This document shows positions 21,885 to 37,473 of a stretch of DNA of 64,000 nt, one piece after another; positions within the stretch are counted from its first letter, which is position 1, and each line of letters opens with the position of its first letter. The DNA lies in contig CAUJHS010000022.1 in NCBI GenBank assembly GCA_963204915.1, positions 124,001-188,000 on the forward strand. The letters run 5' to 3'. The DNA comes from Planctomycetota bacterium. GTDB taxonomy: Bacteria > Planctomycetota > Planctomycetia > Pirellulales > Pirellulaceae. A program made the translations under genes and the position numbers. Below the pieces are notes generated by a model, which worked only from the letters and a program-made list of their open reading frames with translations, searched no databases and was not told the DNA's origin.

Positions 21885-22354
21885 TAGGCTTTGGCTTGCG
21901 GCGAGCGAAGCCATTGGTCGAACAGGTCGCGACATTCTTCACGCAAGACATTGTCGATCAATCGTACGCGGCTGCCTCCCTGGCGCAACAGGTCTGATGC
22001 GGACAGATTGAGTTCGTTAAAACCTGCATGGGCCGCGTCGGTGATTGTGGCGCCGTAATAAACCGTGTCGACCCGCGCCCAATGGAGCGCGGCCATGCAC
22101 ATCGGACACGGCTCGCAAGTGGTCGCCACCACGGCGCCGTCAAGAAAAATATCGCCCAACGTACGACACGCCTCACGCACGGCGTTCACTTCGGCATGCG
22201 CAGTAATATCCGTGGTTGCGAGAACGCGATTATGAGCCGCGGCAAGGATGCTTCCTTGACGGTCAATGGCGCATCCAAAGGGAGATTGCCCCACCGCGAT
22301 GCCTTGACGTGCCTGTTCAATGGCCAGTCGCATTAATTCTTCGGGGTCGATCAT
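21881..22354 (-). CDS. Zinc nucleoside/guanine deaminase
   Basis: A 157-residue member of the cytidine-deaminase-like zinc superfamily. Zinc ligands and proton shuttle are in [10 protein letters not shown] (about 53-62) and [15 protein letters not shown] (about 82-96). The downstream segment AAHAGFNEL resembles the guanine deaminase (GuaD) branch rather than TadA. It probably deaminates guanine to xanthine; a tRNA or nucleoside substrate is possible. Its 3' end overlaps queF on the other strand. Confidence 0.8.
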
Positions 22355-22559
22355 ATGGGTAAAACCGGATTAGAGCGATAAAGTCCGATAGATTTCCAAC
22401 GTATCGGCGAACGAGGGCGACTCGCAATTTCCGCGATGACACCGCAAGTGCCGAGCAGAGAAACCTCGGTCAGATGACCTTGGCGGGCGACTCCCCCTCC
22501 CCTTGCAAACCCATGCCATTGCCTCCATGCTGTAACCTTCGCGCAGGGAGAATCGAGTC

Positions 22560-23300
22560 ATGCATGTTGAAGTATTAGAAACCAAAGACAAACTCGGTGA
22601 AAAGGCGGCTCGCGACGGCGCCGAGGCCATCCGCCAGGCGCTTGCAGAGCGCGGCGAAGCGAACATCATCGTAGCGACGGGCGCCTCGCAATTTGAAATG
22701 CTCTCGCACTTGGTGAAACAGCCGGGCATCGACTGGCGCCTCGTCACCTGCTTCCATTTGGACGAATACGCGGGTATGCCAATAACGCACCCTGCCTCGT
22801 TCCGCAAATATCTGAAAGAGCGGTTCGTGGAGCAATTGCCCACGCCGCCGCGCGGATTTCATTATATCAATGGCGAGGGTGATTGTTCAGCCGAATGTGA
22901 GCGATTGGGGGCATTGATTCAGAAACATCCAACGGATGTCGCGTTTATCGGCATTGGCGAGAACGGCCATGTGGCTTTCAATGACCCACCGGCAGACTTT
23001 ACTACTGAGAAGCCCTACCTGGTCGTCGAGTTGGACGAAGCTTGCCGCCGTCAACAATTAGGCGAAGGCTGGTTCCCGACGTTGGACGACGTGCCGCGGC
23101 AAGCGATCTCGATGTCGGTGCGACAAATCATGAAGTCTAAGCGGATCATTTGCAGTGTGCCCGATGAGCGCAAATCCAAAGCTGTGCAGGGCGCCGTTGA
23201 AGGTCCAATCACGCCGCAGTGCCCGGCGTCAATCTTGCAGCAACATGATAACTGTACAATTTACCTTGATCCGCCAGCCGCATCGAAGTTAAAGAAGTAA
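22560..23300 (+). CDS. nagB: Glucosamine-6-phosphate deaminase
   Basis: A 246-residue protein of the NagB/SugarP-isomerase fold. Family blocks are FHLDEYAGM (catalytic Asp, about residue 69), [14 protein letters not shown] (about 137-150) and the [10 protein letters not shown] block. It converts glucosamine-6-phosphate to fructose-6-phosphate and ammonia. GGAG precedes the ATG by nine bases. The gene begins a same-strand run with a sugar isomerase and a HAD phosphatase, consistent with amino-sugar or sugar-phosphate catabolism. Confidence 0.88.
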
Positions 23301-23391
23301 TTTGACGAACCCCGGGCACGTCTCGGACGACACCGGCTTGTTCGATTCGCCTCCCCTGCCCTGCCTTCTAGTTCACTTCGGCTCACATTTC

Positions 23392-24405
23392 ATGTCTGAT
23401 AAGCCACAAGTCGTCCTTTCTGGCTTCGCCGACGAGGCCGCCCTGCAAAAAACAGCCGAACAACAGTTCGCCGCGTTTGCCGCTCTGGGCTTACAGTATT
23501 ACACCATTCGGTTCATTGACGCCGGACAAGGCGTCAAGAACGTAATGGAGCTGACGCGCGACGAGATCACCCACATTCGCCATTTAGAGGGCCAGTACGA
23601 TTTAAGCGTTTCGTCACTTGGTTCACCTATCGGCAAAGTGAAGTTGAAAGATATCGACGACGGTACGAAAAATCGCTATGTGCCGTTCGAGACGTATCTA
23701 CACAACGATGTCAAAAAGGCATGCGAACTGGCGCACGCGTTTGAGACCAAGCTTATTCGCGGCTTCTCATTCTATCATCCGCGCGGCTCCGACCCGCGCG
23801 AGCATTTGTCGCAAGCCGCGGATCAACTCGGACAAATCGCCGAGGAATGTCATCGTAGCGACTTGACATTCGGGCTTGAAGTCGAAGCAAATCTCGTAGG
23901 CTCGAACGGTGAATTATTGCGAGATATTCACCGCCAAGTGAATCATCCGGCGCTGCTGTTGATCTTCGATGCGGGCAATTTGTCGTCGCAGGGGTATAAC
24001 CCCTACCAGGTCTATCAGCAGTACGAAGCTATGAAGGCAGGCATCGGCTGGATGCACATCAAGGACTACAAACACGCCACGCCGCCCGCCGGTCCAGGCC
24101 ATGTGGATGAAGAAGCGCTCAAACATTTTGTGCCGGCCAACCAAGGCGACAGCGCGCACGAAGCGATTCTGCTCGACTTCCGTCAGATGCTTGTCAAGCT
24201 CGAACAAAAGCTGAAACGCCGAGGAGTGCCGGGCGTGTTCCTCGACCTGGAGCCCCATGTCAAAGGCGGTGGTCAATTCGGTGGATTCAGCGGACCTGAT
24301 GGCATGGGCGTGGCCTTGCGCGGACTGTGCAAACTGCTCGACTACATCGACATCGACTATCATCTGCGCGACTTTGAAGACATTCGCGCCGCGCGTGGGT
24401 TCTAA
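23392..24405 (+). CDS. Sugar phosphate isomerase/epimerase (TIM barrel)
   Basis: About 338 residues from the ATG at 23392; an upstream TTG at 23302 directly abutting nagB adds a Pro-rich stretch unlike the family. The TIM-barrel (AP endonuclease 2-like) fold is shown by metal-ligand positions in FGLEVEANLVG, LIFDAGNLSS, GWMHIKDYK and FLDLEPHVKGGG. Related planctomycete and other bacterial proteins isomerise or epimerise keto-sugars such as inosose or xylose-type substrates; the exact sugar is unknown. It follows nagB and precedes the HAD gene by 40 bases. Confidence 0.82.
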   Translation: MSDKPQVVLSGFADEAALQKTAEQQFAAFAALGLQYYTIRFIDAGQGVKNVMELTRDEITHIRHLEGQYDLSVSSLGSPIGKVKLKDIDDGTKNRYVPFETYLHNDVKKACELAHAFETKLIRGFSFYHPRGSDPREHLSQAADQLGQIAEECHRSDLTFGLEVEANLVGSNGELLRDIHRQVNHPALLLIFDAGNLSSQGYNPYQVYQQYEAMKAGIGWMHIKDYKHATPPAGPGHVDEEALKHFVPANQGDSAHEAILLDFRQMLVKLEQKLKRRGVPGVFLDLEPHVKGGGQFGGFSGPDGMGVALRGLCKLLDYIDIDYHLRDFEDIRAARGF

Positions 24406-24445
24406 ACTGGCGCGGTAAGCAAAACGGAACGCTTGGAGCCGGCTC

Positions 24446-25108
24446 ATGCAGGCGTTGATCTTTGACCTCGACGGCACTTTGATCGACACGGTCTATGCGC
24501 ACGTGTTTGCCTGGCAACGAGCGTTCACCGAGATTGGCTTGCCCATCGACGGATGGCGCATCCATCGCAGGGTTGGCATGAGCGGCGGTCTCTTCGCCCG
24601 GCTGGTAGTTCGAGAGATCGGCCGCGAGCTAAGCGAGCAGGAAGCCGCGGCGCTCAAAAAGCGACACGGCGAGTTGTTTCAGGAATTCTTGCCCACGCGC
24701 CAACCTCTGCCGGGCGCGGTCGAGTTGCTGCGTTTTCTGCGCGACGCGGGCGTAGCGCATGGTATCGCCACTTCCGGCCAACGTCCGGATATCAACGCAT
24801 CACTGGCTGCGCTGCAAATTCCCGATGACACGATCGTCATTCAGCGCGGCGATGTAGCTCGGGCCAAACCCGAGCCGGACTTGTTCCTCGCTTGCCAAGC
24901 GCGGCTTCAGGCGCCCATCACGGAATGTTATGTCGTCGGCGACGCGGTGTGGGACATTCTCGCCGCGCGGCGCGCCGGCATGTTCAGCATCGGCCTGTTA
25001 AGCGGAGGTTACGGCGAAGACGAACTCAGCAAGGCGGGCGCTTTTCGCATCTACCGCGACACGGCCGAACTGTACCGCTCTCTGAACGAGTTGGGGTTAC
25101 TCTCGTAG
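24446..25108 (+). CDS. HAD-superfamily sugar phosphatase/mutase-like hydrolase
   Basis: A 220-residue haloacid-dehalogenase-like hydrolase. Motif I FDLDGTLIDT (residues 5-14), motif II in GIATSGQ, motif III Lys in ARAKPEPDLFLAC and motif IV GDAVWDILAARRAGM are all present, along with the C1 helical cap. It likely dephosphorylates a sugar phosphate or acts as a phosphoglycolate-type phosphatase. It is the last gene of the nagB-isomerase-HAD run. Confidence 0.85.
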   Translation: MQALIFDLDGTLIDTVYAHVFAWQRAFTEIGLPIDGWRIHRRVGMSGGLFARLVVREIGRELSEQEAAALKKRHGELFQEFLPTRQPLPGAVELLRFLRDAGVAHGIATSGQRPDINASLAALQIPDDTIVIQRGDVARAKPEPDLFLACQARLQAPITECYVVGDAVWDILAARRAGMFSIGLLSGGYGEDELSKAGAFRIYRDTAELYRSLNELGLLS

Positions 25109-25188
25109 CCTCAACACTTCGCCCTAAGTCCGTCTTCACCAAGTTGAACCATTTCCGAATTGGCCGCGCGGTGATGGCGCTTCACCAC

Positions 25189-25491
25189 TCAACTTTTCTT
25201 CTTGCTCGTTTTCTTTTTGGCGGTCTTTTTCTTCGTCGCCTTCTTTCGAGTCGACTTCTTGGCCGTCTTCTTACCTCCTTTTTTGCCGCTCTTCTTTGCA
25301 GACGCCGAACTCGCCTTTTTTCCTCGTCCTGAACCCGACTTTTTACCACCACCACTGGACTTGTTCACCGTCGCCCACGCGCGTCGCTCGGCCTCTTGTT
25401 CCGGGACGCCGCGCTGCTCGTAGCTCTCTTCAATATGTTCAGCCTGGCGTTTTTGTTTGTCGGTGTACTTTGATTTGTCGCCGCGAGGCAT
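25189..25491 (-). CDS. Lysine-rich histone-H1-like protein
   Basis: A 100-residue protein. The first 45 residues (KYTDKQKRQAEHIEESYEQR then EAERRAWATVNK) match a small bacterial family sometimes annotated as plasmid stabilisation protein. The C-terminal half is almost only Lys, Ser, Ala and Thr (KKTAKKSTRKKATKKKTAKK-type repeats), like histone H1 tails. DNA binding is the likely role. Such Lys-rich tails occur in several Planctomycetes and Proteobacteria. Confidence 0.8.
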   Translation of the reverse strand: MPRGDKSKYTDKQKRQAEHIEESYEQRGVPEQEAERRAWATVNKSSGGGKKSGSGRGKKASSASAKKSGKKGGKKTAKKSTRKKATKKKTAKKKTSKKKS

Positions 25492-26125
25492 TAGCTAAGC
25501 TCCTCTTAATGAAGTGCGTTTCGCGCATGTCCCGCCCGCCACGTTCATTGTACAAGTCGCCCGCCGCGGCGTAATCCGATGGGCGGCCCAACCTGAGACT
25601 TCCCGCACGTCGCGATACTTGCCTGTTGGCTGCACCGGTTTCAACAACCTGCTCAGCGTACAGGCGCTACGTCTCGTCACAATAAAACCCGGCAATGGGC
25701 GCATTGGCATACTGCGGCCATTAGTCGCTGGGCGCTTGCCAAGAGTTCGCTTGGTCAGTGGAGCAAAACCCGCGCGTTCGTGCGCGGCCGTTGACTCAAA
25801 TGCACTGCCACCCAAAACCGTGGTGATCTCCAGAAGGTGACGCAACGAACCGCATGTGCTCGTCCCTGCGCCGATCGCGAGACGGTTCGCAATTCAAACG
25901 CATTTGCACGTTTCTAACGTCGCAAAACCGATGACTCGACGAAGCTAAAAGAAAAAGATTGACAAAGCCACCCAAATCTGGATAATAACATCCAATTATC
26001 CACTTTAAGCTCCTGGGCCGAAAAAGAGACACCGCACCGCTAAGCGAGGAATCGTTTTCGCCCGTGTCACGTCCGGCGGCATGGTAGCCCGTATCTCACT
26101 TGCAAGCAGAGTAGGGAGCATGAGG
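25492..26125. other. Intergenic region with promoter of the NXR operon
   Basis: About 630 bases without a gene I can support. Open frames on both strands (25495-25845 minus, 25514-25840 plus) lack ribosome-binding sites and known domains. The right part holds a sigma70-type promoter and about 130 bases of leader before the first operon gene. No tRNA fold is evident. Confidence 0.5.
25959..25987 (+). promoter_or_regulatory. Sigma70-type promoter of the NXR operon
   Basis: A perfect -35 hexamer TTGACA (25959-25964) is 17 bases upstream of ATAATA (25982-25987). Transcription would begin near 25995, leaving a leader of about 130 bases before the lipoprotein start at 26126. It is the best-looking promoter near the operon. 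Confidence 0.7.
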
Positions 26126-27994
26126 ATGCTTGAACGATTTTCTCAGCAAGGTTGGGCGTTGCTTACTCGCCTCATGGCGTTATCCCTCTTGCTGCTCGGA
26201 GCAGCAGTGCTCTTCGGCTGTGCCGAACGGCGACAGCCATCGCCGCCCCTGGAAGCGCATTCATCCGAAGTCAATCCACCGGAGAACGCTGCGCTCGACG
26301 TTGCAGAGGCCGCGCCCACGCCGCGGACGGAACATCCCGTTCAAACAACGGCCCCACCCGCATCGGCAGAACCGACCGTATCTCCAAAGCCTGGTTCGAC
26401 TTCTGAAGCGTCGGCTGAAGTCGCGGTCCCGCCGGCCTCGCAAGGAAAGTCGGCTGTCGTCGACGGCAAGGAACTTTACGCACGGCACTGTGCTGCCTGT
26501 CATGGCGCCGCCGGAGACGGCCAAGGGATCGCTGCAGCGTGGTTGTTTCCCAAGCCGCGCGACTTTCGTATGGGCAAGTTTCGCCTGGCGAGCACCATCA
26601 ATGGCGCACCCACGCGGAACGACTTGCACAGCGTGCTTGTGCGGGGAATGCCGGGTTCGTCGATGCCGCCCTGGCCGCAACTTTCCCAAGGCGAACGAGA
26701 AGCCTTGGTCGACGAAGTCTTGCGGCTCTATCGCGAGGGCATCGGTCGTATCTATCTCACCTCGTTGCAAGAGCAGGAAGGGCTGACCGAAGAGGAGCTC
26801 GAGGATCCTGAGATCCAACAAGAAGTCCAGGAGTTCGTCGAACGGCGCACGACGCCAGGCGCGGAGTCGGAAGTTCCGGAAATCGGTGAGCCGACTCCTG
26901 AAGCGATCGCTCAAGGAAAAGACCTCTACGTCAAGCAAGGCTGCGCCGCCTGCCACGGGTCCGATGGCAAAGGCGATGGCCAGCAAAAGATGGTCGATGA
27001 CGAAGGCTTACCCACGCGTCCGCGCGACTTTACCCGAGGCATTTTCAAAGGTGGTCACGATGTCGCTTCGTTATATCGCCGCATCGCCTATGGCATGCCT
27101 GGCACGCCAATGCCAAGCTCCAGCAAGATGACGCCGCAGGAGATGATCGACGTAACTCACTTTGTGCGATCGCTTTCCGATGAATCAACGCGGCAAAACG
27201 CAATCCTTAATCGGGAACGCCTGAAGGCCAAGTCGGTCGCCACGACGCCCAAGACCGCCGAAGATCCGTTATGGGCAAGCGTTGATCCGATGGCGTTACG
27301 CATGGTTCCGCTTTGGTGGCGAGATAATTCCGATCCGCAGCTTCAAGTTCAGGCGGTCCACGATGGTCAAACTCTCGCACTGTTGATTTCATGGCGCGAC
27401 GAGACGCAAGACCCCCATGAGATCACCACCAGCGCTTTTGAAGACGGGGTGGCGGTTGAACTTTTCGCAGGCGCCGCCGAGCCGTTCTTTGGCATGGGTC
27501 TTGCCGATTCGCCCGTCGATGTCTGGCTTTGGAGCGCCGGTCGCGAGGCGCCCAGGCCGGTCGAGGCGGAATACCCGCGAATGGTTGTCGATGTATATCC
27601 GTTCCACGAGGGAGTTGTCGCTTCGCCCGAGTTCCAACGCGACGCAGCGCGCGATGAACAACAACCTGATATTTCGCTGCCAGCCCGCGCCAGCGGAAAC
27701 CAGATTTCGACGATCGCCGATAATTCGGCCGCGACGACGCACGCAGCCGCTAGTCCCGGGTCGCTTTCGTTTCGGATGCCGCATAGCCAATTGGTGAAAG
27801 GTCATGGACGTTGGAACGACGGACGTTGGACCGTCGTTCTGCATCGCGTACTCTCGGTCGACGATCCTGCGGACGGCGTCGCGCTGAAGCCAGGTCGAAA
27901 AGCGTCGATTGCTTTTGCCATTTGGGACGGCAATCAGAACGACCGCGGCAGCAAGAAGCAGGTGACAATTTGGCAAGATTTGGAATTGGAATGA
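26126..27994 (+). CDS. Diheme c / haem b fusion lipoprotein, gamma subunit of NXR-type enzyme
   Basis: About 622 residues from the ATG at 26126 (GGGAG seven bases upstream; in-frame ATGs at 26081 and 26120 are poorer). A lipoprotein signal ends at FGC (about residue 32), followed by a Pro/Glu-rich linker. Two cytochrome c domains follow: CAACH at 122-126 and at 273-277, with distal Met candidates in GMPGSSMPPW and GMPGTPMPSSS. Residues about 385-620 match the ethylbenzene-dehydrogenase gamma/NxrC haem b domain, with candidate axial ligands Met457 (FFGMG) and Lys558 (LVKGHGRW). It should take electrons from the iron-sulfur subunit and pass them to periplasmic carriers. Joining three haem modules on one chain is unusual. 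Confidence 0.85.
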   Translation: MLERFSQQGWALLTRLMALSLLLLGAAVLFGCAERRQPSPPLEAHSSEVNPPENAALDVAEAAPTPRTEHPVQTTAPPASAEPTVSPKPGSTSEASAEVAVPPASQGKSAVVDGKELYARHCAACHGAAGDGQGIAAAWLFPKPRDFRMGKFRLASTINGAPTRNDLHSVLVRGMPGSSMPPWPQLSQGEREALVDEVLRLYREGIGRIYLTSLQEQEGLTEEELEDPEIQQEVQEFVERRTTPGAESEVPEIGEPTPEAIAQGKDLYVKQGCAACHGSDGKGDGQQKMVDDEGLPTRPRDFTRGIFKGGHDVASLYRRIAYGMPGTPMPSSSKMTPQEMIDVTHFVRSLSDESTRQNAILNRERLKAKSVATTPKTAEDPLWASVDPMALRMVPLWWRDNSDPQLQVQAVHDGQTLALLISWRDETQDPHEITTSAFEDGVAVELFAGAAEPFFGMGLADSPVDVWLWSAGREAPRPVEAEYPRMVVDVYPFHEGVVASPEFQRDAARDEQQPDISLPARASGNQISTIADNSAATTHAAASPGSLSFRMPHSQLVKGHGRWNDGRWTVVLHRVLSVDDPADGVALKPGRKASIAFAIWDGNQNDRGSKKQVTIWQDLELE

Positions 27995-28105
27995 GCCCCG
28001 TCGCACAAGCGGCTTTGGGTCGTCGCACCGATCTCCCACGGCGCGATTTGCTACACCCACTCACGCGATATCCCAAACCACCCCACGTTCCTACGGAGCA
28101 TGTAC

Positions 28106-31100
28106 ATGGCTATCTCACGTCGCCGCTTTCTCGAAGCATGCGCCGCAACGGGTGGCGCGCTGTTGGCCGCGGGACCACAGCCCTGGGCTTTTGAGCCCGT
28201 AAGCGTTGAGAACCCCTTGGGGGCGTATCCCCAGCGCGACTGGGAGAAAATTTACCTGGATCAATACGCCTATGATGACAGTTTCACTTGGATTTGCGCG
28301 CCCAACGATACGCACATGTGTCGCATGCGAGCCTTTGTGCGCAATGGCGTGATGATTCGTAGCGAACAAAACTACGATCACGACCGTTACGGTGACCTCT
28401 ACGGCAACCGCGCCACGAAGGCGTGGAACCCGCGCGGTTGCCCCAAGGGCTACACCATGCAGCGTCGCGTGTATGGGCCGTATCGCTTGAAAGGTCCCGT
28501 GCTGCGCAAAGGCTGGAAGCAATGGGCCGACGACGGCTTCCCTTCACTCTCCGAGAAGCCCGAGCTCCGCACGCAATACAAGTTTGACGATCGCGGCAAC
28601 GACGGCTTTGTGCGTGTAACGTGGGACGAGATGTATCGGTACGTCGCCGCTGGTTTGGACGCCATCGCCCGCGCTTACAGCGGCCCGGACGGTGTCAAGC
28701 GTTTGCAGCAAGACGGCTACGAACAGGTCATGATCGACAAGGTCGAAGGAGCCGGAACACGGACAATCAAGATCGGTTCAAATTTGCCCATCCACGGACT
28801 CGTGGGCAAGTTCGGCATTTACCGCTTCGGGAATCTCTTGGGACTGCTCGACCATCATGTGCGCGGAGTCCCGCCCGAGGAGGCGAAAGGAGCGCGCGAG
28901 TGGAACGAGTACACCTGGCGTGGCGACCAGGCGCCCGGCATGCCTTTTGTGCATGGCCTGCAAACGGCCGACATCGACTTCAACGATCTGCGTTTCTCCA
29001 AACTGGTCATCCAGATGGGCAAGAACCTGATCGAAAACAAGATGCCAGAATCGCACTGGCTGAATGAAGTGATGGAGCGTGGCGGGCGATTGGTCGATAT
29101 CGCCCCAGAATATAATTGCCCGGCTACCAAAAGTGATTATTGGATTGCCGTGCGCCCTGGCTTGTCCGACACCGCCGTTTTGCTGGGCGTCACGAAAATC
29201 ATGATCGATAACCACTGGTACAAGGAGGACTTCTGCCGCCAGTTCACCGACTTCCCGCTACTCGTGCGAACTGACACGCTTCTTCGGTTACGTCCGCAGG
29301 ACGTCGACGCAAATTATCAGCCGAAAGATCTTTCCGACGGACCGTCTTACAAGATTCAAGGGTTGAAAGATGACCAGCGTCAAACAATTGGCGACTTCTG
29401 CGTTTGGGACAGCGAGAAGAACGCCGTCGCGTTCATAAGTCGCGACGAAGTAGGCCAACACATGACGATTCCAGCGGCGCTCGAAGGTGCGCATCAAGTC
29501 AAGCTGGCAGATGGCCAGGAAGTCGAAGTGATGACGATCTTCGAGATGTACAAACGACATCTTCAAGATTACAACGAAAAAACCGTGGAGGAAATTTCCG
29601 GAGCGCCAGCCGACCAGGTGCGCCGACTGGCGGAGGACATTTGGACCACGACCGAAGCAGGCCATCCCGTCGCCATTCACATTGGCGAGGGGATCAACCA
29701 CTACTTTCACGCCACGCTGCACAACCGCGCGATGTACCTGCCGTTAATGCTGACAGGCAACATCGGCAAACACGGCGCCGGAGCCTACACGTGGGCGGGC
29801 AACTACAAAGGGGCGTTGCTGCAAGCCTCGCCTTGGAGCGGACCCGGTGTGGGGACCTATAGCGCCGAAGATCCCTTCGCTCCGGTGGTTGATCCCAACG
29901 CGCGGCTGACGCATGAGAACATTCGTCACACTTCCGATGTAGAAGATCCTTCGTATTGGGCCAGCGGCGAGAAGACCATGACGGTCGAATTACCCAACGG
30001 GCAGACGCGCAATTTTACCGGCAAGACGCACCTACCCACGCCGACGAAGGTGATCTGGTACAACAACGCCAATTTTCTTAACCAATCGAAGTGGATCTAC
30101 AATATCATCGTCCACACGCTGCCCAAGATCGACATGATTGTCGATCAGCAAATCGAGTGGACCGGAAGCGCTGAATACGCCGATGTCGTTCTGCCGGTCA
30201 ATTCGTGGGTCGAAATGGAAGATTACGAGTGCGGCGGTTCGTGCTCAAATCCGTTTTTGCAAGTCTGGAAGGGCGGCATTGACCCCGTGCACGACTCGGT
30301 CGACGACGCCGAAGTGTTTGCCGGCGTTGCACGCGCGCTGACGGAAAAAACCAAGGACCCGCGATTTAGCGACTACTTCAAGTTCGTCACCGAGAAGAAC
30401 GCCAAAATTTACATCCAGCGCGTGTTCGACAACTGCACCACCACGCGCGGCGTCGATGGGCCCTACAACGTTGACAAGATGCTGGCGGGCGAGTACGGCG
30501 GTGAACCTGGCGCCGCCTTAATGCTCTTCCGCACCTATCCGCGCGTGTCGTTCTGGGAGCAAATCCACGACTCGGTTCCTTTCTATACCGACAGCGGCCG
30601 CCTCGCGAGTTACTGCGATTTGCCCGAAGCGGTTGAGTATGGCGAAAACTTAATCGTTCACCGCGAAGCGGTCGAGGCCACGCCGTATTTGCCCAATGTG
30701 ATTGTCTCCACCAGTCCCTTCACTCGCCCGGTGGATTATGGCATTCCTCGCGACACCATGGATCCCGAGCTACGCCAGGTGCGTAACATCAAGATGCCCT
30801 GGGCCGAAGTGAAAAAGACCGCCAACCCGCTGTGGAGTCAGGGGTATCGGTTCTTCTGCACCACGCCTAAGAGCCGGCATTCGACGCACTCCTCGTGGTC
30901 CACAGTCGATTGGCACTGGATCTGGAGCGACAACTTTGGCGATCCGCACCGCACCGACAAGCGCGCGCCGGGCGTGGCCGATCGTCAAATCCAAATGAAT
31001 CCTCAGGCCGCACGCGACGCAGGCATTCACGAAGGCGACTACGTTTATGTCGATGCGAACGAGGAAGATCGACCATACATCGGCTGGAAGAACGATCAAG

Positions 31101-31573
31101 GTTTCCGCCACAAGGCCTTCCGTTGCATGGTGCGCGTGAAGTTCAACCCGGGGTTGCCGTATAACTTCACCATCATGAAGCATACCGGCTGGATTGGCAC
31201 CGAGCGGTCGGTCAAAGCGCATGAAACGCGACCTGACGGACGTGCGTTGGCCGCCGACACTGGCTACCAGGCCAGTTATCGCTACGGTTCGCACCAAAGC
31301 ATCACGCGCAACTGGCTAATGCCCATGCACCAGACCGATACGCTGTTCCATAAAAAGACCGGCGGCATGGCCTTCGTGTTTGGATTTGATGTAGATAACC
31401 ATGCGGTCAATACCGTGCCCAAGGAAACGCTCATTCGCATCACCAAGGCGGAGGACGGCGGTTTAGGTGGTCAAGGCCTTTGGAAACCTGCCGCGAGTGG
31501 CTATAGCCCCGGCCAAGAAACGCCGCAGAACCAGCAATACATCGCGGGCGGTTACGTTCAGGTGCGCCGGTAG
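28106..31573 (+). CDS. nxrA: NXR-clade molybdopterin catalytic subunit (NxrA/NarG-like)
   Basis: About 1155 residues from the ATG at 28106 (GGAG seven bases upstream; ATG 28100 is two codons earlier). A Tat signal, SRRRFLEAC, shows export to the periplasm. It is a type II DMSO-reductase-family enzyme binding bis-MGD. The N-terminal cluster motif reads Cys64-x3-Asp68-x3-Cys72-x39-Cys112, whereas NarG has His-Cys-Cys-Cys. Asp249 (GLLDHH) aligns with the Mo-ligating Asp of type II enzymes. Length and motifs match NxrA rather than cytoplasmic NarG. It would oxidise nitrite to nitrate, or run the reverse. It follows the haem subunit by 111 bases and precedes the beta subunit after a small gene. 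Confidence 0.85.
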   Translation: MAISRRRFLEACAATGGALLAAGPQPWAFEPVSVENPLGAYPQRDWEKIYLDQYAYDDSFTWICAPNDTHMCRMRAFVRNGVMIRSEQNYDHDRYGDLYGNRATKAWNPRGCPKGYTMQRRVYGPYRLKGPVLRKGWKQWADDGFPSLSEKPELRTQYKFDDRGNDGFVRVTWDEMYRYVAAGLDAIARAYSGPDGVKRLQQDGYEQVMIDKVEGAGTRTIKIGSNLPIHGLVGKFGIYRFGNLLGLLDHHVRGVPPEEAKGAREWNEYTWRGDQAPGMPFVHGLQTADIDFNDLRFSKLVIQMGKNLIENKMPESHWLNEVMERGGRLVDIAPEYNCPATKSDYWIAVRPGLSDTAVLLGVTKIMIDNHWYKEDFCRQFTDFPLLVRTDTLLRLRPQDVDANYQPKDLSDGPSYKIQGLKDDQRQTIGDFCVWDSEKNAVAFISRDEVGQHMTIPAALEGAHQVKLADGQEVEVMTIFEMYKRHLQDYNEKTVEEISGAPADQVRRLAEDIWTTTEAGHPVAIHIGEGINHYFHATLHNRAMYLPLMLTGNIGKHGAGAYTWAGNYKGALLQASPWSGPGVGTYSAEDPFAPVVDPNARLTHENIRHTSDVEDPSYWASGEKTMTVELPNGQTRNFTGKTHLPTPTKVIWYNNANFLNQSKWIYNIIVHTLPKIDMIVDQQIEWTGSAEYADVVLPVNSWVEMEDYECGGSCSNPFLQVWKGGIDPVHDSVDDAEVFAGVARALTEKTKDPRFSDYFKFVTEKNAKIYIQRVFDNCTTTRGVDGPYNVDKMLAGEYGGEPGAALMLFRTYPRVSFWEQIHDSVPFYTDSGRLASYCDLPEAVEYGENLIVHREAVEATPYLPNVIVSTSPFTRPVDYGIPRDTMDPELRQVRNIKMPWAEVKKTANPLWSQGYRFFCTTPKSRHSTHSSWSTVDWHWIWSDNFGDPHRTDKRAPGVADRQIQMNPQAARDAGIHEGDYVYVDANEEDRPYIGWKNDQGFRHKAFRCMVRVKFNPGLPYNFTIMKHTGWIGTERSVKAHETRPDGRALAADTGYQASYRYGSHQSITRNWLMPMHQTDTLFHKKTGGMAFVFGFDVDNHAVNTVPKETLIRITKAEDGGLGGQGLWKPAASGYSPGQETPQNQQYIAGGYVQVRR

Positions 31574-31688
31574 CCCACAAGTCTCAACTTAAGTAACACG
31601 CTTTACCAATATTCGGCGACCACCTCTCGCTGGCGAAAAACGGTAGCCAGATGCCGCGAAACTCACTCATTCAACCGACGATCGGCCA

Positions 31689-32063
31689 ATGGTCACTCCA
31701 CAAGCGACTCCGAAAACCCATCCCACGGCGCGTGAGGCGACACCCGAGGATCCTCTCAGCCTGCACGCGTTCGAAGTTCCCGGCGACCCCGACCTGATGT
31801 TGCAGTTGCTGGTCGAAGAGTATGCCCGTATGGGTTGGGGCGCGGAGGACCTTTTGCGATTGGCCCGCGATCCTAACTATCAGGCTTTCCACGGACTTCT
31901 GCGTCGTTTTGGAGAGGCGGACTTACGCGCTCGGCTGCAAAGCATCCTGGCGCGGTGCGGCGTATTCCGCATGCGCACGTGGGAGGCCGAGCCTGTGGAA
32001 GAGGAAGTCGAGGAACTGCTACAAATCCAAATTGCCGACCGCGTTCCTTCGGAGCGTGCGTGA
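31689..32063 (+). CDS. Small conserved-looking protein between alpha and beta subunits
   Basis: A 124-residue acidic, helical protein with no signal peptide and no recognisable domain. A central segment (MLQLLVEEYARMGWGAEDLL) and FRMRTWEAEPVEEEVEELLQ are the most distinctive. Its position between the catalytic and iron-sulfur genes on the same strand suggests an assembly or regulatory role for the complex. I do not know its family. Confidence 0.65.
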   Translation: MVTPQATPKTHPTAREATPEDPLSLHAFEVPGDPDLMLQLLVEEYARMGWGAEDLLRLARDPNYQAFHGLLRRFGEADLRARLQSILARCGVFRMRTWEAEPVEEEVEELLQIQIADRVPSERA

Positions 32064-32133
32064 TCTATTTGCCAAATGATCCTTGTGTGCGACGAGTTCC
32101 GCCGCGCACCTTAACTCCTGCCCCCTGAATCCC

Positions 32134-33429
32134 ATGCCTGCCGTCTACAACTGGCAACTCGGCCGCGCGATGAGTTATCCGCATGCAGAGCGGCATCCGC
32201 AATGGCAGTTCGCATTTGTTTTCAATCCCAACCGTTGCATTGGATGCCAGACATGCACCATGGCGTGCAAGAGCACCTGGACCTTCTCCAAGGGCCAAGA
32301 GTTAATGTGGTGGAACAACGTCGAGACGAAGCCCTACGGGGGCTATCCTCAACACTGGGACGCCAAACTCTTGGGAATGCTCGAGGAAGCCAATCCCGGC
32401 GGTCAGGTGTGGAACGCCTCGGCGCCCGAACCCGCCAGCAAACCTTATGGCGTGTTCGAGGGGATGACGATTTTCGAAGCGGCCGAGAAAGTTCCTGGCC
32501 CCGATGGGCCACGCCGCGCTTTGGGTTATCTGCCCGAGGACGATGAGTGGCGCAGCCCCAACATTCATGAAGACACCGCCACCGGCGGACGTCAGAATGA
32601 AGCTGAACGCTACGGCGACTCGGTGCAGTTGCCCGAGCACAAAGTGTGGTTCTTCCATCTCGCTCGCATTTGCAATCACTGCACCTATCCGGGATGTCTC
32701 GCGTCTTGCCCACGCAACGCCATTTACAAGCGTCCCGAAGACGGCATCGTGTTGATCGATCAAAGCCGTTGCCGCGGGTATCGGTACTGCGTGGAAGGTT
32801 GTCCCTACAAGAAGACCATGTATCGGCCGACCACGCGGACCAGCGAGAAGTGCATTGCATGTTATCCGCGCATCGAAGGCCGGGATCCTGCGCTCTCGCC
32901 GGAGGGTGAACCGTGCGAAACACGCTGCATGGCAGCCTGCGTCGGAAAGATTCGCCTGCAAGGCTTAATCAAGCTGGAAGAAAATGGCGCTTGGGCCGTT
33001 GATCCCAAAAACCCGTTGTATTTTCTCATTCGCGAACGTCAGGTGGCGTTGCCGCTGTACCCGCAGTTTGGCACCGAGCCGAACGGGTTCTATATTCCGC
33101 CGCGGTGGGTCCCGCGCGACTACTTAACGCAAATGTTTGGCCCCGGCGTGGAGCACGCCATCGAGCAGTACTCCTGCCCGGACCGCGAACTGATGGCGGT
33201 GCTGCAATTGTTCCGCGCCAGCCGGCAAATCCTCTTCCGTTACGAAATCGAACATGGCGACAAAGTCGCCGAGGTGGAAGTCACCCTTCCCACCGGAGAG
33301 ACCCGCGTTCAGGAAATCTTTAACGACACGGTCTTGGGCTTCAACAAGTTCGACAAGGAAGTAGTCCGCATCACCGTCGAAGAGCCAACATTCGAACGTC
33401 CTCGGGAAGCGCACTTGAACTCGATTTAG
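32134..33429 (+). CDS. nxrB: NXR-type iron-sulfur beta subunit (NxrB)
   Basis: About 431 residues from the ATG at 32134; an upstream TTG at 32083 adds sequence outside the family, and the start MPAVYNWQLGR matches NxrB as I remember it from Nitrospira. Four cluster motifs are visible: Cys35-x2-Cys38-x2-Cys41-x3-Cys45; CNHCTYPGCLASCP; CRGYRYCVEGCP (Tyr in place of Trp, as in 3Fe-4S-type clusters); and CIACYP with CETRCMAAC. The blocks MWWNNVETKPYGGYP and GPGVEHAIEQY are hallmarks of the NXR branch. It carries electrons from the Mo site to the haem subunit. It has no signal peptide and would be co-exported with NxrA. Confidence 0.9.
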   Translation: MPAVYNWQLGRAMSYPHAERHPQWQFAFVFNPNRCIGCQTCTMACKSTWTFSKGQELMWWNNVETKPYGGYPQHWDAKLLGMLEEANPGGQVWNASAPEPASKPYGVFEGMTIFEAAEKVPGPDGPRRALGYLPEDDEWRSPNIHEDTATGGRQNEAERYGDSVQLPEHKVWFFHLARICNHCTYPGCLASCPRNAIYKRPEDGIVLIDQSRCRGYRYCVEGCPYKKTMYRPTTRTSEKCIACYPRIEGRDPALSPEGEPCETRCMAACVGKIRLQGLIKLEENGAWAVDPKNPLYFLIRERQVALPLYPQFGTEPNGFYIPPRWVPRDYLTQMFGPGVEHAIEQYSCPDRELMAVLQLFRASRQILFRYEIEHGDKVAEVEVTLPTGETRVQEIFNDTVLGFNKFDKEVVRITVEEPTFERPREAHLNSI

Positions 33430-33432
33430 ATG

Positions 33433-33456
33433 ATGTTGAGCGCCGCCGCTCAGCAT
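33433..33456 (+). other. Strong hairpin between nxrB and chaperone gene
   Basis: A 10-bp stem (arms 33433-33442 and 33447-33456, one G-U pair) closed by the 4-base loop CCGC lies four bases after the beta-subunit stop. No T-run follows, so it is not a classical terminator. It could stabilise the upstream message or lower expression of the chaperone gene. Confidence 0.6.
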
Positions 33457-33503
33457 GACGTTCCGCCAACGAAACTGCTCTACCGCCAACCATCCTAGAG
33501 TGC

Positions 33504-34292
33504 ATGATCGCCAACAACTGCTCGGAAAACGACGTGGCGCTTCGCATGGCTCGCCAAGTGCTTTACCGGTTTACCGCGTTAACCTTGCTTGATCCACGAA
33601 CTGGGTCTTGGGAGGAATTGCATAACCTGGCAAGCGACGGTTTTTTAGCTGCCGCCGCAGAACTGGTGCGCAGTGAACCGAACGCAGTGGCCGACCCCTT
33701 AGCCTTGGGCGAGTTTCCGGTCAGCTTCCTGGACCCTGCACCCGTGTTAGCCCGCCTGCCGCAGTCGTCAATGGCTCTGAACGAAAGGTACGAGGCGACA
33801 TTCGGCTTGCTCGCGTCATCTGCCTGTCCGCCCTGCGAATCGGAGTACATTAACGGCAAATACACGTTTCAACGTTCGCAAACTCTGGGCGATGTGAGCG
33901 GCTTTTACCGCGCGTTTGGTTTGAAACCTTCGCGACGCCATCCCGAACGACATGACCATGTGGTGCTTGAACTCGAGTTCATGGCGTTCCTGCTGGCCAA
34001 AGAGCGGCAAGCGCTGGAAAGCGCCGTGCCGGGCTCCCAGGAACATGTCGACATTTGCCGCCAGGCCCAAAGACGGTTTTTGCAGGAACATCTGGCGTGG
34101 TGGACGCCAACCTTTGCGCGTTTGCTTGACCACGAAGATGCGGGCGGATTTTATAGCGCAGCAGGCCGTTTTCTGGCCGCACTTGTCGCCTCCGAACGCG
34201 CGCTTCTCCATGTTCCGCCGCCGACGCACTTCGCCGCTCCATCAGCCATCGAACGTCCTGAGGAATGCGAAGGCTGCCAACTTGGCGCTTGA
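33504..34292 (+). CDS. TorD/NarJ-type molybdoenzyme chaperone
   Basis: A 262-residue all-helical protein of the TorD/DmsD/NarJ family. Supporting segments are the N-terminal LYRFTALTLLD, the conserved LNERYEATFGLL / CPPCESEY block (about 92-114), DHVVLELEFMAFLLAKE (about 152-168), and a C-terminal LAWWTPTFARLL helix (about 195-206). These proteins hold the catalytic subunit's Tat signal until the Mo cofactor is inserted. Its position after nxrB fits that job. Confidence 0.87.
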   Translation: MIANNCSENDVALRMARQVLYRFTALTLLDPRTGSWEELHNLASDGFLAAAAELVRSEPNAVADPLALGEFPVSFLDPAPVLARLPQSSMALNERYEATFGLLASSACPPCESEYINGKYTFQRSQTLGDVSGFYRAFGLKPSRRHPERHDHVVLELEFMAFLLAKERQALESAVPGSQEHVDICRQAQRRFLQEHLAWWTPTFARLLDHEDAGGFYSAAGRFLAALVASERALLHVPPPTHFAAPSAIERPEECEGCQLGA

Positions 34293-34321
34293 TGCGTACG
34301 CTCCCACGGTTCGGCAACAAG

Positions 34322-34816
34322 TTACTCCGCCAACTCCTGTAAGCGCGCCGCGATCAACGCGACATCCGACCGGGGCCAGACAGGAGTTCGAACCGCGGCG
34401 GCGTCATCACTAACTACGGCCAGAATGTCCGTATCGCTCGCTGCAAGCGGCGTTTCGGCGACCGATGCTCGCCAGACCTCCACCTTTGGGCCGTCCATTT
34501 GCGAGTGCCCCTCGACCAACACGAGATCGCAATGCGCAAACAACGTCAACATGCGCTGATAGCGCTGGTGCGCGTCTTCACCAGACAAGGCGGGCCAAAA
34601 GACCGCGTTCAGGTCGGGCGAAAGAATCCCAACAGCGGCCGCGCCTGCTTGTCGATGGAGATAGGAATCTTTGCCGGGCGTGTCCAACTCGTGGTGATGC
34701 CGCGTATGCTTGATCGTCCCGACGCGTAGACCTTGGCGCGTCAGGTGCCGGACGAGGTCCACCACTAATGTCGTCTTCCCGCTATTTTTCCGTCCGATGA
34801 TATGAATGCGTTTCAA
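34322..34816 (-). CDS. mobB: Molybdopterin-guanine dinucleotide biosynthesis protein MobB
   Basis: A 164-residue P-loop protein. The Walker A-like motif GRKNSGKTTLVVDL lies at residues 8-21, followed by GTIKHTRHHHELDTPGKDS, a MobB hallmark. MobB binds GTP and aids attachment of the nucleotide to molybdopterin, as needed by the bis-MGD enzyme encoded next door. It is convergent with the chaperone gene and 29 bases away, so it is not in the same transcript but shares the theme. Confidence 0.9.
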   Translation of the reverse strand: MKRIHIIGRKNSGKTTLVVDLVRHLTRQGLRVGTIKHTRHHHELDTPGKDSYLHRQAGAAAVGILSPDLNAVFWPALSGEDAHQRYQRMLTLFAHCDLVLVEGHSQMDGPKVEVWRASVAETPLAASDTDILAVVSDDAAAVRTPVWPRSDVALIAARLQELAE

Positions 34817-35002
34817 GAATCGACCTTGCGAAAATGCGATGCTCCCCGTTTTTCCGTGCCAGCCAAAGTATATCAGGAATGTCAGCTACTTAACCGTCGC
34901 AGTCGCCGCTAACTGGCAGCGAGTATGCCGCCAATCGACCAAGCCGCGCCTCTCAGATTGGGAATCGCAAACACCGGATGAAAAATATCGCGCACATCAC
35001 TA

Positions 35003-35031
35003 TTGACTAAACATTTATTAACATATAAACT
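35003..35031 (+). promoter_or_regulatory. Probable promoter and operator of marR
   Basis: TTGACT (35003-35008) lies 17 bases from TAAACT (35026-35031) in a very AT-rich stretch, unlike the GC-rich surroundings. A partial inverted repeat (TTTAT...ATAAA) overlaps the -10 region, and a related ACATATCAACAAAT sequence recurs near 35562, before the pirin gene. Autoregulation by the MarR protein is plausible but unproven. Confidence 0.45.
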
Positions 35032-35053
35032 AAATACAAGACTTGATCACCGC

Positions 35054-35542
35054 ATGAGGTTTTGGGTGGACGGAAATCGCCTCCAGCACGAACTGAAAAA
35101 GAAACAGCCGTTCGATTCGCCGGCCCAAGAGGCGATTTTGAATCTTTTACGGACGGCGGACCAATTTCAGAATCGTCTCGGTCGGCTGTTTCGGGAGTAT
35201 GGTCTGACCCCTTCGCAATACAATGTGTTGCGAATCCTGCGAGGCGAGGGCCATCCGCTCCCCTCACTGGAAGTAGGCGATCGAATGATTCAAGAGGCGC
35301 CAGCCATTACGGGATTGATTGATCGGTTGGAAAAGCAGGGCCTTGTCCTTCGCCGACGCTGCACCGAAGACCGCCGCGTGGTGTTCGTAGAGATTACCTC
35401 CCAAGGTGTGACGTTGTTATCGCAAATCGACGAACCATTGGCGCGTATGCACGAGCAGCTGATCGGACATCTACGCCCCGATGAATTGGATGCGCTGAGT
35501 CGGCTATTGGAAAAGGCCCGACTTTCCACCGTTGAGGAGTAG
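35054..35542 (+). CDS. MarR-family transcriptional regulator
   Basis: About 162 residues from the ATG at 35054. A TTG at 35003 would start inside the promoter and is rejected. The winged-helix region spans about 35-125: LTPSQYNVLRILRGEG, then the recognition helix area APAITGLIDRLEKQGLV and the wing with CTEDRRVVFVEIT. It likely represses itself and the following redox genes in response to a phenolic, quinone or oxidant signal, as for many MarR proteins. The specific ligand cannot be read from the sequence. Confidence 0.87.
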   Translation: MRFWVDGNRLQHELKKKQPFDSPAQEAILNLLRTADQFQNRLGRLFREYGLTPSQYNVLRILRGEGHPLPSLEVGDRMIQEAPAITGLIDRLEKQGLVLRRRCTEDRRVVFVEITSQGVTLLSQIDEPLARMHEQLIGHLRPDELDALSRLLEKARLSTVEE

Positions 35543-35684
35543 GTTTGCTTAGGGCAAATACTTTACATATCAACAAATCACGTAGAACTAAATTCGGGCC
35601 GTGTGACTAACCGCAACGAAGGTGCGTTGCGCTCTGCGCAACATTACATCACGATATTTCATACACCTTAAGGAGCGCCGGAAC

Positions 35685-36383
35685 ATGCTACAGATTCGCA
35701 AATCTCAGGAACGCGGCCATTTGAATCATGGCTGGCTCGATACGTACCATACTTTCTCGTTCGGCGATTATTACGATCCTCGACATCATCACTACCGCGC
35801 GCTGCGCGTGATGAACGAAGACCGTGTCGCGCCAGGACAAGGCTTCGGCATGCATCCCCACCGGGATATGGAAATTGTCACCTACGTAATCTCCGGCGCG
35901 CTGGAACACCGCGACAGCATGGGCAACGGCGAGGTGCTACGCCCCGGCGAACTCCAGCGTATGACGGCCGGCACGGGCATTTTGCATAGCGAGTTCAACC
36001 CGTCGGAGTCGGAGCCGGTCCACCTTTACCAGATCTGGCTGCTTCCCGAGCGTAAGGGCTTGTCGCCCAGTTATGAACAGCGCGGTTTTGACGCCCAAGA
36101 GCGGCATAACCAATGGCGAATCGTCGCCTCGCGCGAGGGTCGCGACGGATCGCTCACGATCCATCAAGACGCCGACCTTTATTTGGCTACCCTCGACGCC
36201 GGTCAGGGTTTAGAGTTCGCGCTGCGGCTGTCGCGTCATGCGTGGCTCCAAGTGTTACGAGGCGCCGCAAGGCTGAACGGGCAGGAGTTGACCGCTGGAG
36301 ACGGCGCTGCAACGACTGGAGAATCGTTGCTGGTTGTCGAAGCTTCCGACCCCGCCGAAGTTTTATTGTTCGACCTCGCCTGA
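35685..36383 (+). CDS. Pirin-family protein (YhhW-like)
   Basis: About 232 residues from the ATG at 35685, with AAGGAG nine bases upstream; the open frame extends further but without a signal. It has two cupin domains. The N-terminal one has the metal-binding HPHRDMEIVTYV motif (His-x-His about residues 56-58), a third His in LEHRD-type context, and the closing Glu in HSEFNPSESEP. Relatives oxidise quercetin or act as redox sensors. It follows the marR gene and is probably under its control. Confidence 0.87.
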   Translation: MLQIRKSQERGHLNHGWLDTYHTFSFGDYYDPRHHHYRALRVMNEDRVAPGQGFGMHPHRDMEIVTYVISGALEHRDSMGNGEVLRPGELQRMTAGTGILHSEFNPSESEPVHLYQIWLLPERKGLSPSYEQRGFDAQERHNQWRIVASREGRDGSLTIHQDADLYLATLDAGQGLEFALRLSRHAWLQVLRGAARLNGQELTAGDGAATTGESLLVVEASDPAEVLLFDLA

Positions 36384-36465
36384 CTTGAACCGTCGCCCTG
36401 CGAATAATTCCTTGCACGACGATCCTCAAGCCTCGACACAACACCATTTCAGGAACGGTGCAAAG

Positions 36466-37473
36466 ATGAGTGCACGATTTCCTTCGAATCACTTTTATCG
36501 CATCGCCTCCGATGGCGAACCGCGCGACGCTTCCCAGGAGAGCGCCAAGTCCAAGTCCCCCAATCACGATGACGCCGACTTGCTGGACGCCTATTCCCGA
36601 GCCGTGATTGGCGTGGTCGAAACGATTTCACCCGCGGTCGTCAGTCTTTCCGGTCGACGCGGCGACCGTGGCGGATCGGGAACCGGCTTCCTGGTTACGC
36701 CCGATGGCTACGCGATCACGAACAGCCATGTCGTCGGCGATCGTCCGAAATTGCTGGCCGAGACCGTCGAAGGCGATCGTGTCGATGCGGTCGTAGTGGG
36801 AGATGATCCGGCGACAGATCTGGCGCTCGTCCGGCTGGCCGCGCGCGATCTGCCCTACGCGGAAGTCGGCGATTCTGCCGCGCTGCGCGTAGGGCAATTG
36901 GTCATTGCAATTGGCAGCCCGCTAGGACTTCACGCTACGGTGTCGACAGGCGTCGTCAGCGCGCTGGGACGCAGCATGCGCGGCCGTGAAGGTCGGTTGA
37001 TCGAAAACATCGTACAACATTCGGCGCCGATCAACCCCGGCAACTCGGGCGGTCCGCTCGTCGATTCACGCGGCCGCGTGGTCGGGGTCAACACCGCGAT
37101 TGTCGCCATGGCGCAAGGCCTGGGCTTCGCCGTACCAAGCAACACCGCACAATGGGTAATGAGTGAGATACTAACGCACGGTCAGGTTCGCCGCCGACGC
37201 TTGGGGATCGTTGCCACGACCACGGCCTTGTCGCGAGCCGTGATACGCGACTTGGATTTGATCGGCGATCAAGCCGTGGAAGTGATCGACGTGGAGCCAA
37301 ACAGCGCCGCCGCTAAAGCGGGCCTGCGCGCCGGAGACTTAATTGTCGCGGTTCACGATCGGATTGTGACCAGTGTGGACGACATTCATCGGCTGTTGGC
37401 GCAGTTTTCGCACGAACACCGCCTCGCCGTGACGGTGGTGCGCAACGGCGCCCGGCGAGAATTGGAAATCTAA
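36466..37473 (+). CDS. HtrA/DegP-type serine protease without visible signal peptide
   Basis: About 335 residues from the ATG at 36466 (an earlier in-frame ATG at 36334 overlaps the pirin gene). The trypsin-like domain (about 45-245) has the triad His in ITNSHVV, Asp in ATDLALVRL and Ser in NPGNSGGPL. A PDZ domain occupies about 250-335 (SAAAKAGLRAGDLIVAV). HtrA proteases usually work in the periplasm, but no signal or membrane helix is visible here, so it may be cytoplasmic. It is the third gene after marR. Confidence 0.87.
   Translation: MSARFPSNHFYRIASDGEPRDASQESAKSKSPNHDDADLLDAYSRAVIGVVETISPAVVSLSGRRGDRGGSGTGFLVTPDGYAITNSHVVGDRPKLLAETVEGDRVDAVVVGDDPATDLALVRLAARDLPYAEVGDSAALRVGQLVIAIGSPLGLHATVSTGVVSALGRSMRGREGRLIENIVQHSAPINPGNSGGPLVDSRGRVVGVNTAIVAMAQGLGFAVPSNTAQWVMSEILTHGQVRRRRLGIVATTTALSRAVIRDLDLIGDQAVEVIDVEPNSAAAKAGLRAGDLIVAVHDRIVTSVDDIHRLLAQFSHEHRLAVTVVRNGARRELEI

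Follow-up and report, generated by a model that had tools for sequence, protein, structure and literature searches.

An NXR-type nitrite/nitrate oxidoreductase operon with a conserved small protein in a non-anammox planctomycete

The operon analysed here belongs to a planctomycete that is not an anammox bacterium and, as judged from its sequence, encodes a nitrite/nitrate oxidoreductase of the NXR type. This confirms that such an enzyme occurs in a non-anammox planctomycete; as a kind it is already in print, since NXR-type genes of non-anammox Planctomycetota have been published (PMC10732223). The new part is a five-gene architecture that combines an NxrC carrying two fused c haems with a small conserved protein, here called S, together with the clade to which this architecture belongs and the linkage between nxrA and S, which is new as far as the literature searched goes. 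The window, that is the whole stretch of 64,000 nucleotides under study, corresponds to G000:C22:124001-188000, G000 being the label of the host genome (assembly of 9.24 Mb, 99.6% complete). The five open reading frames lie on one strand in the order C-A-S-B-D, separated by gaps of 70-115 nt:

25959..25986, + strand: sigma-70-like promoter candidate upstream of nxrC, TTGACA-16-GATAAT, consensus match in 11/12 bases
26126..27994, + strand: nxrC, cytochrome c (two matches) and EB_dh b-haem domain (Pfam/NCBIfam)
28106..31573, + strand: nxrA, molybdopterin oxidoreductase catalytic subunit with Tat signal (Pfam/NCBIfam)
31689..32063, + strand: S, uncharacterised conserved protein of 124 amino acids, predicted helical, present in genomes with core-type nxrA
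32134..33429, + strand: nxrB, iron-sulfur subunit with Fer4 clusters, no signal peptide seen, motif CIGCQTCTMACK
33504..34292, + strand: TorD-type chaperone, Nitrate_red_del/DMSO II chaperone families (Pfam/NCBIfam)
34322..34816, - strand: mobB, adaptor of molybdenum cofactor guanine dinucleotide synthesis, convergent neighbour (MobB match)

The original prediction of a five-gene operon with an adjoining mobB gene is borne out by the positions of the open reading frames and by the domain matches. Its further proposal that one promoter serves all five genes is plausible in that a candidate site precedes nxrC, but promoter-like sites are no more numerous than in shuffled sequence (2 observed, 3.4 expected). 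A chimeric or contaminating origin is ruled out by the 751,789-base contig that encloses the operon, by a GC content of 0.58-0.60 inside the surrounding range of 0.55-0.60, and by matches in 24 of 146 genomes of the order. The Rfam scan of positions 22000-37000 gave no match, and none of the conserved neighbour families of related operons (at least four loci, among those listed) includes the window. Elsewhere, RIC-like iron-sulfur repair genes were noticed by eye near six related loci (L163, L168, L170, L178, L195, L207) and Rrf2-like regulators near eight (L163, L170, L193, L197, L203, L206, L207, L208), and a conserved gene of unknown kind lies near core operons outside the window clade at 18 loci (L187-L190, L193, L195, L197, L211, L212; L216, L217, L219, L221, L235, L248, L251, L257, L266).

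That neither subunit is NarGH and the two belong with NXR, as had been proposed, is upheld by similarity scores and trees alike. NxrA matches the NxrA of Kuenenia with 1533.6 bits over residues 1-1153 of 1155 (phmmer) and thereby passes the mark of more than 1000 bits to Kuenenia NxrA used in the available text of PMC10732223 (blastp there, phmmer here), as against 168 bits to perchlorate reductase and 118 bits to NarG. For NxrB the corresponding values are 562 bits to Kuenenia NxrB, 196 to perchlorate reductase and 171 to NarH. The NCBIfam models for narG (138.5 bits against a required 1084), narH (182.7 against 524), the DMSO II family TIGR03479 (297.7 against 984.75) and ebdA (144.7 against 2000) all stay far under their cut-offs. 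On these scores and the tree, an assignment to NarGH or to one of the other named enzymes of type II is rejected; for the ethylbenzene, selenate and perchlorate enzymes the comparison was made on scores, outside the tree. The earlier appeal to the MWWNNVETKP block as evidence for NxrB does not hold up, as the block is not NXR-specific. Its coding pattern occurs in at least 117 genome stretches, and among the matches listed about 37 align with the window NxrB across long stretches at 45% or higher. Most of the others reach about 30-38%, much as E. coli NarH does (31%), some of them via short stretches. The block is thus discarded as a marker.

NxrA is predicted to be exported via the Tat pathway, its signal scoring 22.0 bits in TIGR01409 (cut-off 16.7). 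Its FS0 ligand columns (C64/D68/C72/C112) as well as N67 and the Mo-ligand column D274 match those of Kuenenia. NxrC carries two CXXCH motifs (residues 122 and 273) behind what by eye is a lipoprotein-like signal, and its b-haem ligand columns M457 and K611 align with Met155 and Lys305 of the Kuenenia protein. The FS0, Asn70 and haem ligands of Kuenenia are taken from the available text of PMC8387239, the Mo-site pattern from that of PMC6050957. The ligands checked do not separate NXR from the distant clade introduced below, all 24 rows of which have the FS0 Asp, and Asp or His ligation is described for both NXRs and NARs (PMC8387239, in the part available); the FS0 Asp was therefore rejected as an NXR marker. 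Nine NxrA rows of the other S-bearing core carry Cys at the column of D68.

For the phylogeny, NxrA/NarG sequences shorter than 700 residues and some redundant loci were left aside; the 112 rows that remained were reduced to 70 for IQ-TREE, with four NarG rows as the outgroup and one row each for Nitrospira and Nitrospinaceae. Nitrospira, Nitrospinaceae, two anammox families and the window fall into a core clade of 46 NxrA rows at 100/100. Two separate branches inside it have a support of 94/99 each: one is made up of the rows from Nitrospira, Nitrospinaceae and anammox bacteria, the other has 16 rows and includes the window. A third anammox family splits off immediately outside this core, and further out lies a distant clade whose NxrA shares about 40% identity with that of the window; G167 belongs to it. 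Forcing 12 window-clade rows into one clade with the nine from Nitrospira, Nitrospinaceae and anammox bacteria lowers the likelihood by 181 log units (p-AU 0.0002), so that placement of the window within the branch of these organisms is rejected. In a quick tree of NxrB the window stands beside the same planctomycete relatives and apart from NarH at 100; in this tree, with its poorly resolved deep nodes, Nitrospira and Nitrospinaceae are separate from the anammox rows. The S-bearing core is one clade in FastTree (support 91) and unresolved around the Nitrospira/anammox branch in IQ-TREE, and a single S-bearing clade is not rejected by the AU test (p 0.43). Both gain and loss of S are therefore compatible with the trees.

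S follows the window type of nxrA closely. A profile built from 120 database homologues, the window S and later matches was run over the loci, and loci with a long nxrA (at least 700 residues) and nxrB were counted. S was present in 14/14 loci of the window subclade, in 11/11 of the rest of the window clade and in all 36 other core rows, a group that is defined by S. Once the two core loci without it, L190 (nxrA and nxrB 64 bases apart) and L248, are counted as well, nxrA has S next to it in 61 of the 63 uncharacterised core operons that were informative. The profile search found S in none of the 14 Nitrospira, Nitrospinaceae and anammox loci (1, 1 and 12), nor in 24 distant-clade and three NarG loci, nor in the further Nitrospira locus L031 or other Nitrospira loci among the matches listed. 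Outside the core, the single SAR202 locus has it. Under the 700-residue cut lie core-type operons without S (L268, Nitrospinae, RIFCSP; L274, Bacillota) as well as fragmentary S-positive loci, for instance L019, L058, L069, L070, L073 and L119.

The same picture emerges from whole genomes, which were sorted by hand into core, anammox and distant types from match lists. Among 392 genomes of the phylum, 85 have an NxrA match: 37 of the core non-anammox type, 30 of the anammox families and 18 of the distant type only. S was found in 31 genomes, all of them among the 37 (31/37); five of the six remaining core genomes hold only nxrA fragments, the sixth being G354. With at most 11 candidates scored per genome, this search detected no S in the 30 anammox-family genomes, the 18 of the distant type only or the 307 without an NxrA match. 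In the sample of the order, where up to 31 candidates were scored, 24 of 146 genomes have an NxrA match (22 of the core type, two of the distant type only); S was found in 18 of the 22, three of the four misses having a fragmentary nxrA and the fourth being G445, and in none of the two distant-type-only genomes or the 122 without a match. In G445 the locus L172 (G445:C701), whose NxrA is a 79% relative, has neither a detectable S nor nxrB; a chaperone frame comes directly after nxrA, and nxrA is followed by a repetitive-looking stretch.

S matches no Pfam or NCBIfam family at E 0.001. Its AlphaFold model (pLDDT 81, pTM 0.55) has helices at residues 34-47, 52-60, 65-74 and 76-90, and a Foldseek comparison with the PDB returned no known fold at E <1 (best E 2.4). 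No description of S was found in the open-access journal literature covered, which extends to the available parts of PMC8940962, PMC9952944, PMC11995701 and PMC8115632. Most likely S acts as a cytoplasmic assembly or quality-control factor. Whatever its role, it is a new protein to test and provides a simple genetic marker that splits most uncharacterised members of the clade from the Nitrospira, Nitrospinaceae and anammox enzymes.

In which direction, then, would such an enzyme work? We infer that it turns periplasmic nitrite into nitrate and so serves the cell as an auxiliary source of energy, a reading to which we give a probability of roughly 0.55, and that it is probably reversible like the NXR of Kuenenia. 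The Mo site of NxrA (D274, N67) would bind nitrite. From FS0 (three Cys, one Asp) electrons would cross the four clusters of NxrB, reach the b haem of NxrC and continue to its two fused c haems. NxrC, predicted to be lipid-anchored, would pass them to a soluble cytochrome c and on to a terminal oxidase, and the reaction would release its protons outside the inner membrane. Since a Tat signal is present in NxrA and none was seen in NxrB, the two are predicted to be loaded with cofactors in the cytoplasm with the help of the TorD-type chaperone and S and then to be exported jointly.

Nitrite oxidation is favoured by the full-length match to Kuenenia NxrA and NxrB, by the shared Mo, FS0 and b-haem ligand columns and by the 100/100 clade that unites the window with Nitrospira, Nitrospinaceae and anammox bacteria, given that the Nitrospira, Nitrospina and anammox enzymes are termed exclusively NXRs in the available text of PMC6050957 and that the Kuenenia enzyme works in both directions (PMC8387239, in the part available). 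Against it speaks that the window lies outside the branch of proven enzymes, that the ligand residues are common to the distant clade too, and that the titles of S-bearing loci read MAG or uncultured, with no experimentally tested member seen. The title of the close relative L028 names Lac Pavin, and RIC-like and Rrf2-like genes, which by eye suggest a response to NO, lie near some related operons; both count against nitrite oxidation.

The host genome gives evidence on either side. That the host is not an anammox bacterium, as originally proposed, agrees with the lack of an HZS_alpha match in G000 in a search that was positive for 13 of 15 anammox-family genomes (G049 and G239 were negative). 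In the same order, G522, which carries both an S-bearing NXR and the distant type, has an HZS_alpha match of 87.6 bits (cut-off 26.6) at G522:C132:5471-5764, and weaker partial matches occur in G509 and G044. G000 has no RuBisCO match, and RuBisCO is found in 2/22 core genomes of the order versus 16/124 others. It has a NapA-like gene (G000:C22:640162-642549; 868 bits against a cut-off of 904 and 825 against 930), NrfA (G000:C45:41031-42227; 434 bits) and a Nas/formate-dehydrogenase-like gene at about 110-115 kb of G000:C22 (NasA 464 and NasC 454 bits, under their cut-offs; Fdh-alpha 489 bits). This last gene has as its neighbour a NirA-family gene that scores 900 bits, above the cut-off, and the two precede the window start by about 9-14 kb. 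NirK exceeds its cut-off in 0/146 order genomes, with 27 weak matches below it, G000 included (32 bits), and in one of 14 controls; NosZ gave no signal by PF18764, the control genomes being equally silent. The missing RuBisCO match, NrfA and the NapA-like gene would suit a nitrate respirer and thus argue against nitrite oxidation, whereas the fact that NapA-like, Nas-like and NirA genes are already present argues for it.

The opposite assignment, an NXR-clade enzyme that would reduce nitrate to nitrite in the periplasm at low oxygen and draw on reduced cytochrome c through the c haems of NxrC, is possible, though in our view less likely. The chemistry is reversible (PMC8387239), and among related enzymes outside the core is that of Thermogutta terrifontis, for which nitrate reduction was deduced from genome reconstruction (PMC5673643) and which is listed as a nitrate reducer (PMC10732223), as well as that of Hydrogenobacter thermophilus (PMC6050957), each according to the part of the source available. 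Many relatives are called nitrate reductase in the JGI annotation. Moreover, NapA-like genes and strong NrfA matches (over 100 bits, a mark of our own) are scarce in the NXR-core genomes of the order, at 2/22 and 3/22, which would leave the NXR-type enzyme as their possible nitrate reductase; set against 12/124 and 36/124 in the other genomes, the same counts show that neither gene is enriched with the NXR core, and in G000 a NapA-like gene is present already. Within the core clade, the enzymes known from experiment are NXRs. Finally, bc1 cytochrome b adjoins the operon in 0/28 loci of the window clade and 1/36 of the other S-bearing core (Rieske 2/36), versus 3/4 in the third anammox family and 11/24 in the distant Thermogutta-type clade, locus lengths differing such that absence is weaker evidence for short loci. 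The window type thus appears to bring no quinol-oxidising partner, which favours nitrite oxidation over nitrate reduction. A bidirectional enzyme of nitrite detoxification or redox balancing that conserves little energy would fit the missing RuBisCO match in the 9.24 Mb genome, the patchy occurrence of the core type (22/146 order genomes) and the NO-response-like genes near some relatives, but is improbable in view of a dedicated five-gene operon whose fused c haems point to respiratory wiring.

If these operons oxidise nitrite, nitrification capacity extends to large lineages usually uncounted in nitrifier surveys; if they reduce nitrate, counts of nxrA and nxrB in metagenomes overstate nitrite oxidation. 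A bolder and rather unlikely extension takes the S-bearing operons as the signature of a guild of facultative nitrite oxidisers that has stayed hidden and has members in many phyla (Planctomycetota, Chloroflexota, Omnitrophota, Elusimicrobia, Verrucomicrobia and others). S would there be an essential assembly or switching subunit, and Nitrospira, Nitrospina and the anammox bacteria would be specialised side branches devoid of it.

Among the systems known to be most similar is the structurally solved Kuenenia stuttgartiensis NXR-ABC (PDB 7b04), which shares with the window full-length homology of NxrA and NxrB (NxrB 59% identity; anammox-family NxrA about 55%) and the same Mo, FS0 and b-haem ligand columns. 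It additionally has a tubule subunit, NXR-T (PMC8387239), and the two anammox families nearest to it differ from the window in gene order (C-B-D-A), in a short NxrC without CXXCH and in lacking S. The third anammox family has a fused NxrC as in the window, hence this trait alone is not unique. The enzymes of Nitrospira (NxrA 49%, NxrB 64% identity) and Nitrospinaceae (53% and 63%) belong to the same 100/100 clade but to a separate branch without S, and the position of the window's FS4 Cys is taken by Asp in the former and by His in the latter. The NXRs of non-anammox Planctomycetota MAGs, likened here by description, come from the same phylum, and S is not described in the available text on them (PMC10732223). 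Most remote is the Thermogutta-type enzyme of G167, which we infer to be Thermogutta terrifontis from an A-B-C-chaperone order and adjacent bc1 genes as described in PMC5673643: it and its relatives have the A, B, C and chaperone genes and the FS0 and haem-ligand columns of the window, but differ in NxrA (about 40% identity), a mostly A-B-C-D order, the lack of S (0/24) and the frequently adjacent bc1 genes. The Nitrotoga type, finally, has been described as a sister clade (PMC6050957) and is reported from another phylum as well (PMC11009272).
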